Both the position numbers and the translations under genes were made by a program. Below are positions 7,593 through 49,918 of a stretch of DNA of 64,000 nucleotides, piece after piece. The notes beneath the pieces were generated by a model. The model was not told the DNA's origin, did no database searches, and saw nothing but the letters and a program-made list of their open reading frames with translations. Each line of letters begins with the position of its first letter. Within the stretch, counting starts at the first letter, position 1. Location: the NCBI RefSeq assembly GCF_001650195.1, contig NZ_LXYR01000006.1, positions 62,001 to 126,000 of the forward strand. The letters are read 5' to 3'. The DNA comes from Phormidesmis priestleyi BC1401 (lineage in GTDB: Bacteria; Cyanobacteriota; Cyanobacteriia; Leptolyngbyales; Leptolyngbyaceae).

Positions 7593-8918
7593 ATGACTGA
7601 GCAACCCGAAGATAAACGTCAAGACTCTAGTACGCCTGAAAAAACTGATGAGTCTTCTCAGTTGGAGATTGCTCAAAACTGGTTTAACAAAGCACAGGGA
7701 CTCTGGGGAAACGTCACCTCAAATTTAAGCAATCGACTCCCGGTGCAGCAAGTTGCTCAGACCGTCACAGGCTGGTTTAGTGTTGACGAAGCTGAGATTG
7801 CTGAAATTCTCAAAGAGATTCGGGCAGAGTTGCCGACGACCGAAGCGCTTTTGATTGGTAAACCCCAAGCAGGCAAAAGCTCGATCGTGCGGGGTTTGAC
7901 AGGTGTCTCGGCTGAAATCATTGGTCAAGGATTTCGACCTCACACGCAGTATACACAACGCTACAGCTATCCGACGTATGACCTGCCTCTGCTGATTTTC
8001 ACAGACACTGTAGGTTTGGGAGACGGCACTCAAGAAACCAACGAGGTAATTCGAGAGTTAGTTGGCGAGATCGAGGTCAAGACAGCCCAAGCGAAAATCC
8101 TAATTCTGACGGTCAAAATTAATGATTTTGCTACCGATACTTTGAGACAGATTGCAGGTCAGATCCGACAGCAGCATCCCGAAGTGCCGTGTCTGTTGGC
8201 GGTGACGTGTCTGCACGAGCTTTACCCGGCGGATGTGACGAATCATCCTGATTATCCACCCGCTTATGAAGATGTGAGTCGGGCATTTGCTGAATTACAG
8301 CGTGGATTTGAGGGACTGTTCGATCGAGCCGTCCTAATCGACTTCACGTTAGCAGAAGATGACTTCTCCCCAATGTTCTACGGCTTAGATGCGCTGGCTG
8401 ATTCGCTCGCAGAATTGCTGCCCGAAGCAGAAGCTCGGACGATCTCGCAATTATTGAGCGATCGAGAAGCCGGAAAACAAATTAGCAATCTCTACCGAGA
8501 AGCGGGACGACGCTACATTTTGCCCTTCTCGGTGATGGCGGGTGCTTTGGCGGCAGTGCCCTTACCATTGGCGACGATGCCCGTTTTGACTGCGCTACAA
8601 GCCTCAATGGTGGGGCTGTTGGGACAAATTTATGGACAAACTCTCAGTCCGTCTCAAGCGGGGGGATTGGTGAGCGCGATCGCGGGCGGATTTGTTGCCC
8701 AAGCGATCGGACGTGAGTTAATCAAATTCATCCCTGGTTTTGGCAGTGTGATCGCGGCATCGTGGGCAACAACTTACACTTGGGCACTAGGCGAGACGGC
8801 GTGTGTCTATTTTGGGGATTTATTGGGCGGCAACACGCCTGACCCAAAGCGAATTCAGGCAGTGATGCGAGAGTCGTTTGAAGCGGCGAAAGAAAGATTT
8901 AAGACCGCGAAAAAGTAG
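7593..8918 (+). CDS. GTPase with C-terminal DUF697 domain
   Basis: The protein has 441 residues. A charged N-terminal segment leads to an Era/Der-like G domain: P-loop GKPQAGKSS at 89-97 and switch II motif DTVGLGDG at about 145. The usual NKxD is not evident; AVTCLHELYP occupies the expected place. The C-terminal third has hydrophobic stretches (FSVMAGALAAVPLPLATMPVL and GLVSAIAGGFVAQAIG) typical of DUF697, which associates with membranes. A second DUF697 GTPase lies at 61614-63221 with a canonical NKAD motif. The role is unknown; the family is common and multi-copy in cyanobacteria. Confidence 0.78.
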   Translation: MTEQPEDKRQDSSTPEKTDESSQLEIAQNWFNKAQGLWGNVTSNLSNRLPVQQVAQTVTGWFSVDEAEIAEILKEIRAELPTTEALLIGKPQAGKSSIVRGLTGVSAEIIGQGFRPHTQYTQRYSYPTYDLPLLIFTDTVGLGDGTQETNEVIRELVGEIEVKTAQAKILILTVKINDFATDTLRQIAGQIRQQHPEVPCLLAVTCLHELYPADVTNHPDYPPAYEDVSRAFAELQRGFEGLFDRAVLIDFTLAEDDFSPMFYGLDALADSLAELLPEAEARTISQLLSDREAGKQISNLYREAGRRYILPFSVMAGALAAVPLPLATMPVLTALQASMVGLLGQIYGQTLSPSQAGGLVSAIAGGFVAQAIGRELIKFIPGFGSVIAASWATTYTWALGETACVYFGDLLGGNTPDPKRIQAVMRESFEAAKERFKTAKK

Positions 8919-8927
8919 ACGATTCGG

Positions 8928-9164
8928 TTGAATAGCGAGAAACCCGGAGGTCAACTTCCTGCCCTTGCAGAAGCAGAGTTTGATGTGTTCATCACCATCG
9001 ATCGCAATTTGTCGTTTCAGCAAAATTTGCCCCAGTTCAATATTGCGGTCATTGTTTTGCAAGCACCATCTAATCGTTTAGCGGATCTGAAACCTCTAGC
9101 ACCGGCAATTTTAGGTATTTTACCTACCGTAGCAAAAGGGCAGGCTACAGTAGTCAGCGCATAA
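8928..9164 (+). pseudogene. Truncated DUF5615-like (PIN-type) toxin remnant
   Basis: From about residue 9 the frame reads QLPALAEAEFDVFITIDRNL and continues with SFQQNLPQFNIAVIVL. This matches my recollection of the second half of small DUF5615 toxins, which have PIN-like folds. The usual N-terminal part with the first acidic residue (a DEHLP-like segment) is missing, and only a TTG is available as a start. The GTPase gene ends ten bases upstream, where the missing half should be. I read this as the 3' remnant of a toxin gene rather than a working gene. Confidence 0.6.
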
Positions 9165-9350: not shown

Positions 9351-11111
9351 TCAATGGATTGTATCCTCCAACCACAACTCAGATACTTTAAGGACGCTAC
9401 GGCTGAGTTTTATACCTATTTCACCTTCAGAAGCGAATTCGATTACTTCATTATTCGACTGAATCTCTAGAATCTCTGCTCTAAACCAAGCCTCGTCATT
9501 ACAGATAATGATCGATGCACCCTTGTTGAGAGTGAAGTTATCAACGTTAAGTATTACAACTTGCCCTCCGTGATGAACTTCTAGAGGGTACCCAAGCAGA
9601 TTGGATTTCGATGGCTTGAATTGCACAAGTCCATATTCCAACAAAGAAAGCCTAGCATCTTCTTTTGTTATGAAACCTTCTTCAATATTGGAGTATAACT
9701 TGAAAATTTCATATGTAGTCAACAATCCTCTTTCATCCGATTGAGCATCAAGAATCTGTTGTTCACTAAAGGGAGGATTCTTTCTTTGAAGGGGAGGAAG
9801 ATATCTCTGATGGTTAACTACATATAGAGCAAAGACATCAAACTTATTTCGTTCTCTAGCTCTTCTATACTTAATCTTACTTATTTGTGAACACTCGCTA
9901 TCTTTAGAAGTACCACCGATACCTTTAACTTCTACAACTAATAAGCCGTTTTTTAAAGAAATCTGAAGATCTTCCTCTTTGATTTCTGGATTGGCTTCGT
10001 CCATGTTAACAATATTTTCAAAACCAAGCCAAATGAAAAAATGTTCAATAGATTTGACCAATAAATCACTCGTTTCAGTTATCAAGCTATGCAGAAATTG
10101 ATATTTGGATTGATTTATTTCGAGCTCTTCTTCTATCTCGTTTAAAGCTGATTTGTACTCATTTTCTAGCTTTACTTTTCTTGCGAGAAGATTTGCTTCA
10201 TTTGGAAGAATGTAACTTTCTAGCTTCAACCAAGAGAACTTCTTAGAGTAAGGGAAGATTTTAGGAAATAATTCAGGCAGTAATTCGTCAATAAGTTCAA
10301 GCAAAAAATCTTTCTTGCTATCCTGTAATTGAGGGAAAGCGAAAACCATTGATTTCTCTAAAGAAGAATCAATAACCCCAACAATTTCATTGTCAGAATT
10401 TAGCAGTAGAGGAACAAAATCATTCCTCTCAATCTGCTTCTGCTCATCCTGTGACCATTTCACAGGATGCTTAAACACAATTTCGTAAGTAAATTTTTTG
10501 TTATATTTTTGAAGGAAGTTTTTAATATTCTCTTCGATATCTGAAACCATCGTATTTTTGCCCGTTTTATTATAACTTCCCCTTAAACAGGGGATAAATT
10601 CATATAAGGAATGTTGTATAGGTTCTGCTTCGTAAGAGCTACTACGATTTAGTGTTACAGGATGATACTCACACGTCTCATCTGCGGAACAAAAAACAAC
10701 AATAAGAGTGTCTTTGGAAAAAAAGTCTCCTAATTTTCTTCTTAAAATACTTGATGATAGTGGTCTTGGATCAAAAATTGTTTCAGGATGGCTGCTCGAT
10801 AAAAGAGTTTGTTCACTTCCTTTGAAAAACGAGTGCGTGTGTTCAGACTTAATGTATTCAATCGGCTCTCGATCTTGCAAATCGACAATTACAATGTCGT
10901 ACTCGTGAAGATTGGGCGGAAAATCAAAGTTTAGCAAGCATGAATGCTGATCTCGCCTACCTGAATTCGGTACTTTAACTTGGGAACCTAACGTGCCAGG
11001 GAAACAATGCAAACCCTTAGCTTGTAAAGCCTCGATAATTTCTTGATCTAGATCAATCGCACAGATTTTAGGTCTTTCTTTTATTTGAATACTTAAAGAT
11101 TTGTCTGTCAT
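9351..11111 (-). CDS. Uncharacterised 586-aa protein with probable PD-(D/E)XK nuclease domain
   Basis: I do not recognise this as a named family. Visible regions are: residues 14-90, a Rossmann/receiver-like segment (ICAIDLDQEIIEAL, then YDIVIVDL); about 305-345, a charged coiled coil; about 350-430, a restriction-endonuclease-like core (WLGFENIVNMDE, Asp381 in EEDLQI, Glu394 and Lys396 in LVVEVKG); and about 505-583, a beta-rich C-terminus. The D...ExK arrangement fits a PD-(D/E)XK nuclease or a fold relative. The gene is clearly AT-richer than its neighbours and sits between a toxin remnant and a toxin-antitoxin pair, which suggests acquired DNA and possibly a defence role. That role is inference only. 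Confidence 0.6.
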   Translation of the reverse strand: MTDKSLSIQIKERPKICAIDLDQEIIEALQAKGLHCFPGTLGSQVKVPNSGRRDQHSCLLNFDFPPNLHEYDIVIVDLQDREPIEYIKSEHTHSFFKGSEQTLLSSSHPETIFDPRPLSSSILRRKLGDFFSKDTLIVVFCSADETCEYHPVTLNRSSSYEAEPIQHSLYEFIPCLRGSYNKTGKNTMVSDIEENIKNFLQKYNKKFTYEIVFKHPVKWSQDEQKQIERNDFVPLLLNSDNEIVGVIDSSLEKSMVFAFPQLQDSKKDFLLELIDELLPELFPKIFPYSKKFSWLKLESYILPNEANLLARKVKLENEYKSALNEIEEELEINQSKYQFLHSLITETSDLLVKSIEHFFIWLGFENIVNMDEANPEIKEEDLQISLKNGLLVVEVKGIGGTSKDSECSQISKIKYRRARERNKFDVFALYVVNHQRYLPPLQRKNPPFSEQQILDAQSDERGLLTTYEIFKLYSNIEEGFITKEDARLSLLEYGLVQFKPSKSNLLGYPLEVHHGGQVVILNVDNFTLNKGASIIICNDEAWFRAEILEIQSNNEVIEFASEGEIGIKLSRSVLKVSELWLEDTIH

Positions 11112-11357: not shown

Positions 11358-11450
11358 TTGTAGCTTGGGATCTTATTGTCATACAACTTCCTAAAATCTT
11401 GACTTCACATAGGCGGATAATCGATCGACACCCCGCTCGATCGCGATCAT
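11358..11450 (-). repeat. Direct repeat copy 1: remnant of aminotransferase 3' end
   Basis: These 93 bases match 12156-12248 without gaps at a constant offset of 798 bases and roughly 80% identity. On the minus strand it encodes [16 protein letters not shown] and a stop, nearly the same as the last residues of the intact aminotransferase ([16 protein letters not shown]). The similarity continues about 33 bases beyond the stop codon. The two copies bracket the BrnT/BrnA pair. Confidence 0.85.
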
Positions 11451-11509: not shown

Positions 11510-11767
11510 CTATTTGCCTACGCGGTCAAGTTCTTCGCGCAATACCCTTCGTAACGTTGCTTCTAGCGGCTCACGTCTTTGCTCAATATGCTGACGTAAC
11601 GCTTCGTTAATCAAACTTTGATAGTTGCCGCCACCCGCCGCATGAACCTGCTCTCGAAACCATGCTAAGACTTCATCATCCAACCGAATGGTGATACGAG
11701 TCTTGCCCGCACCCATCGGCTCAACTGCACCTCGCTGACCCTGACTAAAATCGTACTCTGCTTCCAT
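11510..11767 (-). CDS. brnA: BrnA-type antitoxin
   Basis: This 85-residue protein has a ribbon-helix-helix core (TRITIRLDDEVLAWFREQVHAAGGG, then NYQSLINEALRQHI), the DNA-binding arrangement of BrnA antitoxins. It is followed by a helical tail. The gene begins three bases after the BrnT stop codon on the same strand, the usual toxin-first order of brnTA operons. BrnA binds and neutralises BrnT and represses the shared promoter. Family assignment is by fold and context. Confidence 0.85.
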   Translation of the reverse strand: MEAEYDFSQGQRGAVEPMGAGKTRITIRLDDEVLAWFREQVHAAGGGNYQSLINEALRQHIEQRREPLEATLRRVLREELDRVGK

Positions 11768-11770
11768 GAT

Positions 11771-12037
11771 CTACCCCTTTTCATACTGTGTTTGTTCATG
11801 ACGTATGGCTTTTCGAGCCGAAATCAACCGAATCTCGTTGCCACGCCACGTATACACCACCACTAGGACTCGACCCAAAGCATCCATACCGATCGTGATG
11901 AACCGTTCTTCCTCGAACCGCTCATCGGTTATCGTAATCGCCAAAGCATCCAAAAACGTAGATACGGCATCTGCAAAATCGATTCCGTGTTTGTTTAAAT
12001 TGGCGGCAGCTTTTTCTCTGTCCCACTGGTATGACAT
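11771..12037 (-). CDS. brnT: BrnT-type toxin (ribonuclease)
   Basis: The 88-residue protein starts at ATG 12037 (MSYQWDREKAAANLNKHGI). It has the BrnT hallmarks: WDREKAAANLNKHGIDF, then DERFEEERFITIGMDA and IRLISARKAIRHE. BrnT is a RelE-like RNA-cleaving toxin that blocks translation under stress when BrnA is lost. An in-frame start at 12115 would add 26 non-conserved residues and is rejected. With brnA it lies between two copies of the aminotransferase 3' end. Confidence 0.9.
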   Translation of the reverse strand: MSYQWDREKAAANLNKHGIDFADAVSTFLDALAITITDERFEEERFITIGMDALGRVLVVVYTWRGNEIRLISARKAIRHEQTQYEKG

Positions 12038-12155
12038 GCCTTTATTATAGTATGCACATTTGTACACCGAGATGGTAGTGTGGCTATATCTAAAAGCGCT
12101 GGGACTGATCGACATTTTCTAAGTTACGTTCTTACTCAGCGTATAAGGGCGGACG

Positions 12156-12248
12156 CTGTAGCTTGGAATTTTGTTCTCATGCAATTCTCTAAAATCTTGA
12201 CTTCACGTAGGCGGCTAAACGATCGACACCCCGCTCAATGGTCGTCAT
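12156..12248 (-). repeat. Direct repeat copy 2: 3' end of the intact aminotransferase gene
   Basis: This is the partner of 11358-11450. It covers the last about 60 coding bases of the aminotransferase (stop at 12189-12191) and about 33 bases downstream of it. Alignment to copy 1 is gap-free. Confidence 0.85.
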
Positions 12249-13355
12249 GTCCGTCGCATAAGACAGCCGAATGTGATCATCTGCCCCAAACGCAATGCCC
12301 GGAATCAACGCAACTTGCTGTTCGTTCAATAGCCCATCGCAAAACTCAAGGGATGACATTCCCAATTTGCTGATGTTGATGAAGATATAGAAAGCACCAT
12401 TGGGCGTTAAACACGTTAAACCGGGAATCGCGTTCACTAGATTGAGAATCACTTGGCGACGATCGGCAAAGGCGAGACGCATTTGTTCAACACAGTCTTG
12501 TGAGCCTTCGAGAGCGGCGATCGCCCCATATTGGGCAAACGTACATACATTAGAAGTGCTGTGTCCTTGAATGATGCTGACGGCTTTGAGGAGTTCTAAA
12601 GGAGCCGCTAAATAGCCGACTCGCCATCCCGTCATTGAGTAAGCTTTTGCAAATCCGCTGCTGATGATCGTGCGATCGAACACTTCAGAACTCACTGCGC
12701 CAATACTCAAATGCTGGGCACCGTCATAGAGCAGCTTTTCGTAAATCTCATCCGAGACGACCAGAATATCGTGTTCGACGATCACCTCAGCGATCGCTCT
12801 CACTTCTTCTGGGGTGTAAACCATCCCCGTTGGATTTGAGGGCGAATTGAGAATAAACAGGCGCGTTTTGGGCGTAATAGCTTGTCGTAGTTGGTCAGGC
12901 GTAATTTTATAGCCGCTTTCTGCCGTGGTCTGGACGATTACCGGAGTTCCTTCTGCCAGCTTCACCATTTCGGGATAGCTCACCCAAAAAGGAGCCGGAA
13001 TAATTACTTCGTCGCCTGCCTCGATCAGCGCCATCATCAGGTTATAGAGCGAGTGTTTGCCCCCATTGGTGACAATGATGTTTTCGGCGCTGTAGCAGAG
13101 TTGATTGTCGGTTTGCAGTTTGTGGGCGATCGCCTCTCTCAGTTTCGGTTCTCCCGCCGCCGGACCGTATCGAGTTTTGCCCGCCATGAGAGCATCAACT
13201 GCCGCTAATTTAATGTGATCGGGTGTGTCAAAATCGGGTTCTCCTGCACTAAAGCTACAGACATCGATTCCGTCTCGCTTCATGGCTTTTGCTTTGGCAT
13301 CGATCGCCAACGTCAAAGAAGGAGTCACTTGCTTAACCCGTGCTGCCAGCTTCAT
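12189..13355 (-). CDS. aspC: Class I aspartate-type aminotransferase
   Basis: The 388-residue PLP enzyme of fold type I has the substrate region [10 protein letters not shown] at about 36, SPSNPTG at 171-177 with the PLP-facing Asn, SDEIYEKL at about 201, and the PLP lysine K237 in [17 protein letters not shown]. It most resembles AspC/subgroup I-beta enzymes that transaminate aspartate, and often prephenate, with 2-oxoglutarate. The length is normal. The gene is intact even though its 3' end is duplicated 798 bases downstream. Confidence 0.92.
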
Positions 13356-31538: not shown

Positions 31539-32603
31539 GTGAATTCAGATTTAGATGATTCAGTTACTTTAATCACTAGCGAAAGTAGCGAAATACCTGA
31601 TTTCGGGAGCGGCTTCGTGATTCATCAAGATGAAGGCACAACTTTCTTATTGACCTGCGCTCATGTTGTAAAAGATGTTGGCGGTACAACAAGAGTTAAA
31701 GTTGGTGCAGATCTTGCCGAGGTCTTTAGATTGGGCGAAAAGGACGGGTGCGACTTAGCCATTCTTAAAGTTGATGGGCTAATGAGAAAACCACCGCTCA
31801 AGCTATCTAATTCTGCTACTAAAGGTAAGCGAATCATCATAGCAGGCTATTATCAAAACGAGACAAAAGTAAAAATCTTAAGAAGAATTTCAGGCGTTAT
31901 TGGTGAGCGCATTGTTTTTGAGTTAGATGGCGATCGCACTGTTGTATGGGATGTGGAGATTGATGAGAGCAGTAAGTATTTTTTACAGCCTGGATACAGT
32001 GGTTCTCCGGTAGTAGACGAGCAGACCGGAGCAACGATTGGTGTCATGAGCCAGCGTGTAGGAACAGGAAGGCAAGGATTAGCTATATCTATAGAGGCAG
32101 TGAGGAAAATCTGGCAGGATATTCCAAGTTCATTACTACAAAATGAGCTAAATTACTTGCGTAACGAAATCGCTATTAAAGAGAGAAGAATTGAGAAAAG
32201 TAGAGAAGAGCTAAACCAGGTTGAACTTTATTTAAGAAGTAGCGCTAATCAGCAGTTTAACAAATCTCTACGCTGGTTGAGTAATCGAGGTTGGCTAGCA
32301 GAGAAAATTGGAAGAGAAGCTCTAAAACAGTTTTCTGATACCGCAAAATATTTGGAAGAAAATAATTATACTAGACGTTTTTACTTGGAAATTAAGTTGT
32401 ATTTAGACTTCATCTATTACTCCTTAGTAACAAAGCGATTTAACTTGTTGCATGAACCAGTTGTTTCTCAGTGTCAGTCTAATCCTGACGTGTATATACT
32501 AGCTTTGCAAATCCTTAAACAAAGAATTCCAGGACACATTGTTGAAGATGAGAGGAAAGCGCTAGAAGCCCGAATCGATTATTTAAAGAGCAGACTTCTT
32601 TAG
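31539..32603 (+). CDS. Trypsin-like serine protease with unassigned helical C-terminal domain
   Basis: The protein has 354 residues from GTG 31539, preceded by AAGGAG at eight bases. Residues 10-195 form a trypsin-like fold with a complete triad: His42 in LLTCAHVV, Asp72 in CDLAIL and Ser154 in PGYSGSPVV. No signal peptide is present, so it acts in the cytoplasm. Residues 200-230 form a coiled coil; 235-354 are helical and unassigned (FNKSLRWLSNRGWLAEKIGR, then YLEIKLYLDFIYYSLV). Trypco1 is immediately upstream. By analogy with known Trypco-trypsin modules it may be a suicide or effector-activating protease triggered by infection. Confidence 0.85.
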   Translation: MNSDLDDSVTLITSESSEIPDFGSGFVIHQDEGTTFLLTCAHVVKDVGGTTRVKVGADLAEVFRLGEKDGCDLAILKVDGLMRKPPLKLSNSATKGKRIIIAGYYQNETKVKILRRISGVIGERIVFELDGDRTVVWDVEIDESSKYFLQPGYSGSPVVDEQTGATIGVMSQRVGTGRQGLAISIEAVRKIWQDIPSSLLQNELNYLRNEIAIKERRIEKSREELNQVELYLRSSANQQFNKSLRWLSNRGWLAEKIGREALKQFSDTAKYLEENNYTRRFYLEIKLYLDFIYYSLVTKRFNLLHEPVVSQCQSNPDVYILALQILKQRIPGHIVEDERKALEARIDYLKSRLL

Positions 32604-48793: not shown

Positions 48794-49399
48794 ATCCTGT
48801 CTGGCAATAGGGGCTACTCATCGCGGGTCTCATCTGCACCTGTTGCGGAGGATCTCTTCAGTTGACTACCCTCCCGTTCATACGATAGTCTCACTTACTT
48901 CAAAAAGCGACTGTGCTCGATCGTGCTTCTTTCTCAACTTGGCACGCCTTAAAAATCAGAACTTTCCCAAACCTTTCACCCTTTTTAAAATATTTGTGAT
49001 AATTGAATGAACTCGAAATCTGTCTTATAGGTGAGGAATCTCATTTATAGCTCAGAGTTCACTTTATAGAGATCAACACTAAGAGATGCTATGAACGATG
49101 GCTTTAGGTAATAGGAGAGAGGCTTAAACAAACAGGTAAATTTAGTCACTTACTACGCAGAGCTAGAACTTTTCATCTCTAAAAACGTCTACCTTTAGAC
49201 AGTTCTAGACTCAACTCCTACTAAGGAGGGGATCAGGTCTTGATAGAGGAAACTTTAGGTCAACGTTTAACTACAGAGCCACTCAAATTGTCCAGAGGGT
49301 TAATACTTGAAGCGCTATTCTCAGGAATCAACTGAATTTTGCGTTGCTAGAATTAATTATCGCATTTTTGATTCTACAAATTATAGGTCTCAAATTTTT
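48794..49399. other. Non-coding gap upstream of the NYN gene
   Basis: About 600 bases without a credible gene. Three TTATAG hexamers occur at about 20-base steps (49025, 49045, 49064). A CTCCTACTAAGGAGG hairpin-like sequence lies at about 49213-49227. No tRNA or known riboswitch was recognised. Confidence 0.4.
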
Positions 49400-49411
49400 A
49401 TGCATTACGCC

Positions 49412-49918
49412 ATGAACCGTCTCTCTATCTTTGTAGACGGAAACAATATGTTCTATGCCCAGCAGAAAAATGGATGGTTCTTCGATCCTAAACGAGTGTT
49501 GGAGTATTTTGTTAGTGAACGAGACATTGAGTTAGTCAACGCTTTTTGGTATACGGGGTTGAAAGATCCTCAAGATCAAAGAGGCTTTCGAGATGCGCTG
49601 ATCAGCCTGGGTTACACCGTCAGAACGAAAATTCTTAAAGAATATTATGACGATACATCGGGTCGCTATTCGCAAAAAGCAAATCTCGACATAGAGATTG
49701 TGGTCGATATGTTTAACACCGTCGATCAATACGATCGAGTGATTCTCTTCAGCGGCGATGGCGATTTTGAACGGGCGATCGAGCTGCTGCGTTCAAAAAG
49801 TACGCACATCACAGTAGTCTCCACCGAAGGCATGATCGCGAGAGAATTGCGAAATGTTACCGATCGCTACATCGATCTTAATGACATTCGTCCTCATATT
49901 GAAAAAGCCGATTACTGA
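49412..49918 (+). CDS. NYN-domain (LabA/DUF88-type) putative ribonuclease
   Basis: The protein has 168 residues from ATG 49412 (MNRLSIFVDGNNMFYAQQKN). It has the PIN-like acidic residues of NYN domains: Asp in FVDGNN, the DIEIVVDMF segment and FSGDGDF. It ends with VSTEGMIARELRNVTDRYID. LabA/DUF88 family members include putative RNases; cyanobacterial LabA affects the circadian output pathway, but the present gene cannot be called LabA itself. An alternative ATG at 49400 adds four residues; longer starts are not conserved. Confidence 0.85.
   Translation: MNRLSIFVDGNNMFYAQQKNGWFFDPKRVLEYFVSERDIELVNAFWYTGLKDPQDQRGFRDALISLGYTVRTKILKEYYDDTSGRYSQKANLDIEIVVDMFNTVDQYDRVILFSGDGDFERAIELLRSKSTHITVVSTEGMIARELRNVTDRYIDLNDIRPHIEKADY

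Follow-up and report, generated by a model that had tools for sequence, protein, structure and literature searches.

The gene at positions 9351-11111 of the window, the 64 kb stretch of DNA analysed here, probably encodes a stand-alone anti-phage nuclease of an uncatalogued predicted family. An anti-phage role for the predicted nuclease is in itself likely, and the features that point to it were computed: the fold of the protein, the invariant residues of its nuclease core, the lack of a partner gene, the mobility of the family and its location at defence hotspots. As a candidate defence family it is widespread yet uncatalogued, occurring in nine phyla, on plasmids and in P2-like and other prophages.

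An AT-rich gene in a cyanobacterial genome

The first-pass annotation had placed a 586-aa ORF here and had described its base composition as sharply different from that of its neighbours; the coordinates, strand and length of the ORF are borne out (Table 1), and so is the contrast. The GC content of the gene is 0.357, compared with 0.487 for the window outside the gene, and none of the 1,174 other 1,761-nt windows of the 64 kb is as low. GC3 is 0.31, against 0.50-0.56 in the neighbouring genes. The host is a cyanobacterial genome, judged from the nearest family members and the relatives. A search for terminators and sigma-70 promoters gave no signal above chance.

Elsewhere in the window, an AT-rich island at 31539-32603 (+), with a GC content of 0.395, carries a gene for a 354-aa trypsin-like protease with a C-terminal helical part, which may be another accessory or defence gene. 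An AT-rich stretch at 49307-49918 (+) contains a gene that reads as coding for an NYN-domain (LabA-like) protein.

Table 1. Coordinates of the predicted nuclease gene, its domains and the flanking features in the window
Feature	Position	Strand	Evidence
Left border, GTPase gene	7593..8918	(+)	91% identical in same-genus genome G001, same contig as right border
Small ORF, possible toxin remnant	8928..9164	(+)	No Pfam toxin match; DUF5615-type toxin end by eye only
Predicted single-gene defence nuclease P0001	9351..11111	(-)	Intact ORF, 586 aa, ATG start; 59-member alignment A2; AF2
EF-Tu-domain-2-like beta barrel, residues 494-584	9360..9632	(-)	hhalign PF03144; Foldseek; HEPN_MAE_28990 proteins
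PD-(D/E)XK nuclease core (predicted), residues 338-482	9666..10100	(-)	AF2 secondary-structure order; BFVD Foldseek matches
Catalytic motif (putative) E380-D381 ... E394-V-K396	9924..9974	(-)	E380, D381, E394, K396 invariant in 59/59
Coiled-coil helix, residues 305-336	10104..10199	(-)	AF2 secondary structure
N-module, residues 10-300, class I glutamine-amidotransferase-like fold; predicted sensor or pseudo-enzyme	10212..11084	(-)	AF2, Foldseek
92-nt direct repeat, outer copy (duplicated aminotransferase gene end)	11359..11450		76% to aminotransferase end in G001
BrnA antitoxin	11510..11767	(-)	PF14384, E 8.7e-12
BrnT ribonuclease toxin	11771..12115	(-)	PF04365, E 2.7e-28
92-nt direct repeat, inner copy (true 3' end of aminotransferase gene)	12157..12248		83% identical to 11359-11450
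Right border, aspartate-aminotransferase-like gene	12189..13355	(-)	93% identical in G001, same contig as left border

A predicted nuclease core with invariant putative catalytic residues

The full-length protein was modelled with AlphaFold2 (AF2) from the alignment of 59 members. The model (mean pLDDT 91) has four parts, an N-terminal module of 280 residues (N-module), a coiled coil, a PD-(D/E)XK core and a C-terminal barrel. Its pTM is 0.56, and the relative placement of the domains is therefore unsure. In the core, secondary structure follows the order helix-strand-strand-helix-strand, which is that of restriction endonucleases, with D381 beside strand 382-386 and E394-V-K396 within strand 389-397. 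Foldseek matches among viral structures (BFVD) included several restriction endonucleases and an Mrr-type protein. The PDB list for the full model was occupied by EF-Tu, eIF5B and SelB; the fold of the core rests on the AF2 order and the BFVD matches.

Residues D371, E380, D381, E394, K396, G397, G400-T401-S402, D404, Q409 and K412 are invariant in 59 of 59 homologues, as are Y430, V432, N433, R443, P447, Q452 and T466 across the same alignment. The nuclease residues are thus fixed while the N-module varies among homologues. With motif, structure model and fold matches all backing the core, we consider it very likely that the product is a PD-(D/E)XK nuclease, as predicted. The residues picked out by the first-pass annotation (D381, E394, V395 and K396) are present, three of them (D381, E394 and K396) in every homologue. 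The coiled coil and the beta-rich C-terminus that it had proposed also appear in the model, at residues 305-336 and 500-585; what can be added is that the latter is an EF-Tu-domain-2-like barrel found in HEPN-type systems as well.

An amidotransferase-like N-module

Modelled alone, the N-module reached an AF2 pTM of 0.88. Its best PDB match by Foldseek was lin1909 (E 1.2e-4), followed by aminodeoxychorismate (ADC) synthase, anthranilate synthase, PuuD and the carbamoyl-phosphate synthetase (CPSase) small subunit. The six PDB matches with E <= 0.001 are all of amidotransferase type, as local matches with a query-normalised TM of about 0.37. The proposal of a Rossmann/receiver-like N-terminus therefore stands only for the alpha/beta fold, in a module that runs to about residue 285; a response-regulator receiver was rejected, since among solved structures the module matches class I glutamine amidotransferases best. 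Profile-profile comparison of the N-module gave no GATase match and, because sequence profiles fail to detect GATase, the amidotransferase link rests on the fold.

At position 141, the putative nucleophile, the 59 homologues have Cys (24), Ala (21), Ser (6) or Gln (6); in the F-x-H-P motif near 215 the His is present in 31 of 59 and the following Glu (217) in 1 of 59, all these positions being set by topology and motif. These column counts over the 59 homologues revealed no conserved Cys-His-Glu triad, and an active amidotransferase was rejected on that ground. Since the triad is not conserved, the N-module seems to be a derivative without catalytic function that may bind a ligand or a protein. 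Apparently, the glutamine-amidotransferase fold has been reused as a non-catalytic module in a predicted nuclease.

A C-terminal barrel shared with HEPN proteins

Compared by hhalign with PF03144 (GTP_EFTU_D2) members of the same genome, the barrel (residues 494-584) scored 81.6% (E 1.1e-5), control families scoring <1%, and Foldseek of the full model against the PDB returned EF-Tu, eIF5B and SelB at E about 1e-6. In Pfam itself the barrel lies below hmmscan detection. With good confidence, the C-terminal barrel can be called EF-Tu-like.

A family profile run against cyanobacterial genomes picked out proteins of about 350 aa that share only the barrel, at their C-terminus. The bodies of these proteins are HEPN_MAE_28990 (PF18737) and the adjoining gene is GmrSD_N (PF03235), in 4 of 4 genomes checked. 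That the barrel is common to the nuclease family and the HEPN_MAE_28990 proteins is indicated by hmmsearch (E 1e-9 to 1e-12) and hhalign (98.6%, E 5e-16). We found no description of a HEPN_MAE_28990-barrel fusion. MAE_28990 HEPN genes, operonic with ParB-type nucleases and methylases, have been described as conflict systems (PMC3710099). The barrel, being fused to HEPN RNases too, is therefore a module exchanged between unrelated nuclease effectors of conflict systems, swapped in this case between PD-(D/E)XK and HEPN effectors.

HEPN_MAE_28990-barrel proteins lie next to GmrSD_N at loci L141, L142, L143 and L144. On Pantoea agglomerans megaplasmids (L077, 3998-4330, and others) a stand-alone 110-aa gene corresponds to the barrel part only; it is possibly a remnant or a case of independent use.

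A rare and mobile family

By tblastn, the family was found on plasmids of Synechocystis PCC 6714 (70%) and of Klebsiella, Serratia and Pantoea (about 30%), and a faecal prophage scaffold carries a member (37%). A profile-guided scan gave at least 44 loci in 84,980 species genomes and at least 21 in viral contigs, both numbers being lower bounds with exact motif words required. A single-sequence query against the viral contigs gave no match; an alignment-based query then found members. The named loci span nine phylum-level groups. Among relatives of the host the gene is present in 2 of 97 genomes, in one of them as a copy broken by a frame change, and the window's own copy is the only full-length one among 386 cyanobacterial genomes. 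The family is rarely carried and is horizontally spread across bacteria, plasmids and prophages.

The second cyanobacterial copy (L139, 11559-13318, genome G033) is split into two overlapping frames. It sits between gyrA-like and deaminase-like genes, flanked by one full and one broken DUF5615 gene.

A DNA search of 5,426 E. coli genomes with two enterobacterial members as queries, from which distant members could escape, found no close copy. There is therefore no tested homologue in E. coli to lean on, and the same absence may explain why E. coli-based screens missed the family. Searches of Pfam, NCBIfam, PADLOC, PHROGs and PDB sequences gave the protein no match better than chance, and none of the PADLOC 2.0 models (2023 release) matches the family, apart from one member's stray hit to Cas8a (E 0.0045). 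Nothing was found in the literature on the protein accessions of the family or on its architecture, in a search that covered mainly open-access journal papers and may have missed a recent description.

Placement at defence loci of prophages and plasmids

Four P2-like prophages (L059, L060, L075 and L076) carry the gene with replication gene A (phrog_91) on one side and portal gene Q (phrog_68) on the other, and at a Nitrosomonas locus (L034) it follows a gpA-like gene. Rousset et al. 2022 (PMC9122126) defined the gpA-gpQ site as an anti-phage hotspot, occupied in P2 by old and tin, and several systems from this site were found in a functional selection (PMC9519451). In Pseudomonas-type prophages the family gene adjoins CI-type repressors and in enterobacterial prophages UmuD/UmuC-type genes. 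It neighbours PifA (PADLOC E 2.1e-261) on a Klebsiella michiganensis plasmid (L006), a PifA-like protein at L039 and the defence reverse transcriptase DRT UG39 (E 1.7e-165) at L041. On a Pantoea plasmid, presumably a P1-type phage-plasmid by its looks, it lies amid phage head-processing, tail, lysis and ddrA genes. The prophage and plasmid copies are thus often placed at defence hotspots of mobile elements. In chromosomal neighbourhoods a recognisable defence gene was seen in a minority only, as counted in raw neighbour scans that have no background rate for comparison.

At L043 (6799-9728) the homologue and the end of a gene that looks like HsdS, a type I restriction specificity subunit, overlap by 4 nt, which places this copy inside a restriction operon. 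A PADLOC pAgo match at the same locus was rejected as an Argonaute; the protein reads as AlbA_2/Schlafen-type.

An all-against-all comparison of 605 neighbour proteins found no recurrent partner gene or antitoxin, in agreement with the lack of a partner noted for the window. What recurs is mainly phage structural, replication, repressor and SOS-type genes, and most family copies stand alone. Cotranscription was rejected: a same-strand gene ends within 50 nt upstream at 7 loci only, and one starts within 50 nt downstream at 2. The earlier reading of a candidate single-gene defence nuclease with a D381...E394-V-K396 core is supported. It had set two outcomes against itself, a predicted structure lacking the PD-(D/E)XK fold and homologues that are core genes in synteny, and it survived both because the fold is present in the AF2 model and the homologues, scarce and mobile, frequently sit at defence loci of prophages or plasmids.

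The locus in the window

BrnT and BrnA, which the first-pass annotation had read as a toxin-antitoxin pair, are clear by Pfam; of the toxin remnants that it proposed, the small ORF at 8928-9164 is a possible one, with no Pfam toxin match and a resemblance to a DUF5615-type toxin end by eye only. The BrnTA pair lies between the two copies of the 92-nt repeat, on the aminotransferase side of the gene, and this repeat suggests that a cassette was inserted here and the end of the aminotransferase gene duplicated.

In the same-genus genome G001 the interval between the two border genes is without the nuclease and BrnTA. It holds a gene for a 1,316-aa protein, a VapC-type PIN-domain toxin gene (E 1.8e-17) immediately preceded by a small gene, and a DUF433 gene (E 3.7e-26). 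The locus is thus itself a hotspot, the nuclease and BrnTA being swapped for a predicted NACHT-like NTPase and a PIN toxin in G001. The 1,316-aa protein (C32; L138, 1617-5567) reads as a NACHT-like STAND NTPase with no Pfam or PADLOC match, and is possibly an uncatalogued defence protein.

Proposed mechanism and alternatives

In the mechanism that we infer for a stand-alone anti-phage nuclease, the N-module, lacking a conserved triad, would most likely act as a sensor by binding either a phage protein or an infection-linked ligand. The coiled coil would keep subunits together in an oligomer, the PD-(D/E)XK core would cut nucleic acid upon activation, and targeting would fall to the EF-Tu-domain-2-like barrel. 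The outcome could be direct clearance or abortive infection. The occurrence of the barrel in fusions with HEPN RNases makes an RNA target, or one linked to translation, conceivable, with cleavage of phage DNA just as possible. In its most specific form, that of a single-protein immune nuclease in which an eroded amidotransferase is the infection sensor and the HEPN-shared barrel steers unrelated nucleases towards the translation machinery or a phage mimic of it, the proposal is tentative and less likely than not. If the barrel does read a translation component, the choice of RNA or ribosome targets by some defence nucleases would be directly testable.

The protein may instead be a stand-alone type IV-like restriction enzyme whose barrel reads modified DNA and whose core cuts it, with no infection trigger. 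Such an enzyme would fit the PD-(D/E)XK fold and its BFVD matches, among them restriction endonucleases and an Mrr-type protein, the position of barrel-bearing HEPN proteins beside GmrSD_N, a modification-dependent restriction family, and the homologue directly after the HsdS-like gene at L043. However, neither Mrr_cat nor any other restriction family is matched by sequence, the barrel is most closely related to translation-factor domains and not to known base readers, and the 280-residue amidotransferase-like module would be superfluous. On balance we regard this as unlikely, if worth keeping in view.

An abortive-infection nuclease that docks through its barrel on tRNA, a translation factor or the ribosome, and cuts RNA with its core, is a doubtful reading of about the same standing. 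PD-(D/E)XK enzymes are mostly DNA cutters, and EF-Tu-type barrels are common and can bind proteins; against this stand the relationship of the barrel to EF-Tu domain 2, its occurrence in HEPN RNase proteins, and the precedent of CoCoNuT III-A nucleases, for which an OB fold with EF-Tu domain II among its best DALI matches and an RNA target have been predicted (PMC11090510).

It is improbable that the gene is a maintenance or addiction nuclease of mobile elements without a role against phages. The occurrence of the family on plasmids and prophages, and the BrnTA, VapC-type and DUF5615 toxin genes nearby, would suit that role; yet no antitoxin or other partner accompanies the gene, and it fills sites of known anti-phage genes. 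A housekeeping DNA-repair or recombination nuclease, for which the generic nature of the PD-(D/E)XK fold would speak, is highly improbable for a gene found in 2 of 97 relatives, in an AT-rich island, without conserved synteny and absent from the same locus of a same-genus genome.

Comparison with known systems

Shedu (SduA, PF14082) is likewise a single-gene defence with a PD-(D/E)XK nuclease and a variable N-terminal part, but its N- and C-terminal domains differ from those of the protein described here. Membership in Shedu was rejected, with no Pfam or PADLOC match to SduA_C/DUF4263 and an hhalign score of 0.1% against 14 SduA_C members. Mrr and other type IV restriction endonucleases (PF04471) also share the PD-(D/E)XK core, a viral Mrr-type model matching at TMt 0.46 and rmsd 3.2. 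They are without the amidotransferase-like and EF-Tu-like modules, and membership was again rejected (no Pfam Mrr_cat match; hhalign 0.2% against 15 members).

The systems of HEPN_MAE_28990 and GmrSD_N (DUF262/ParB-like) have the same C-terminal barrel in four cyanobacterial genomes, but there a HEPN RNase is the effector, and the system has a second gene. CoCoNuT likewise combines a coiled coil with a nuclease, and the OB fold predicted for type III-A is most similar to EF-Tu domain II (PMC11090510); these systems differ in being multi-gene and McrBC-derived, with a GTPase and tandem nucleases. Class I glutamine amidotransferases (lin1909, PuuD, TrpG/PabA) share the fold of the N-module, in which the Cys is kept in 24 and the His in 31 of 59 homologues and the following Glu is nearly absent. 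The old and tin genes of P2 occupy the same gpA-gpQ hotspot as the family gene in P2-like prophages; Old is an ATPase-TOPRIM protein. The architecture, an eroded amidotransferase-like predicted sensor joined to a predicted nuclease and an EF-Tu-like piece, is absent from the libraries searched; its individual domains and its lifestyle are known.
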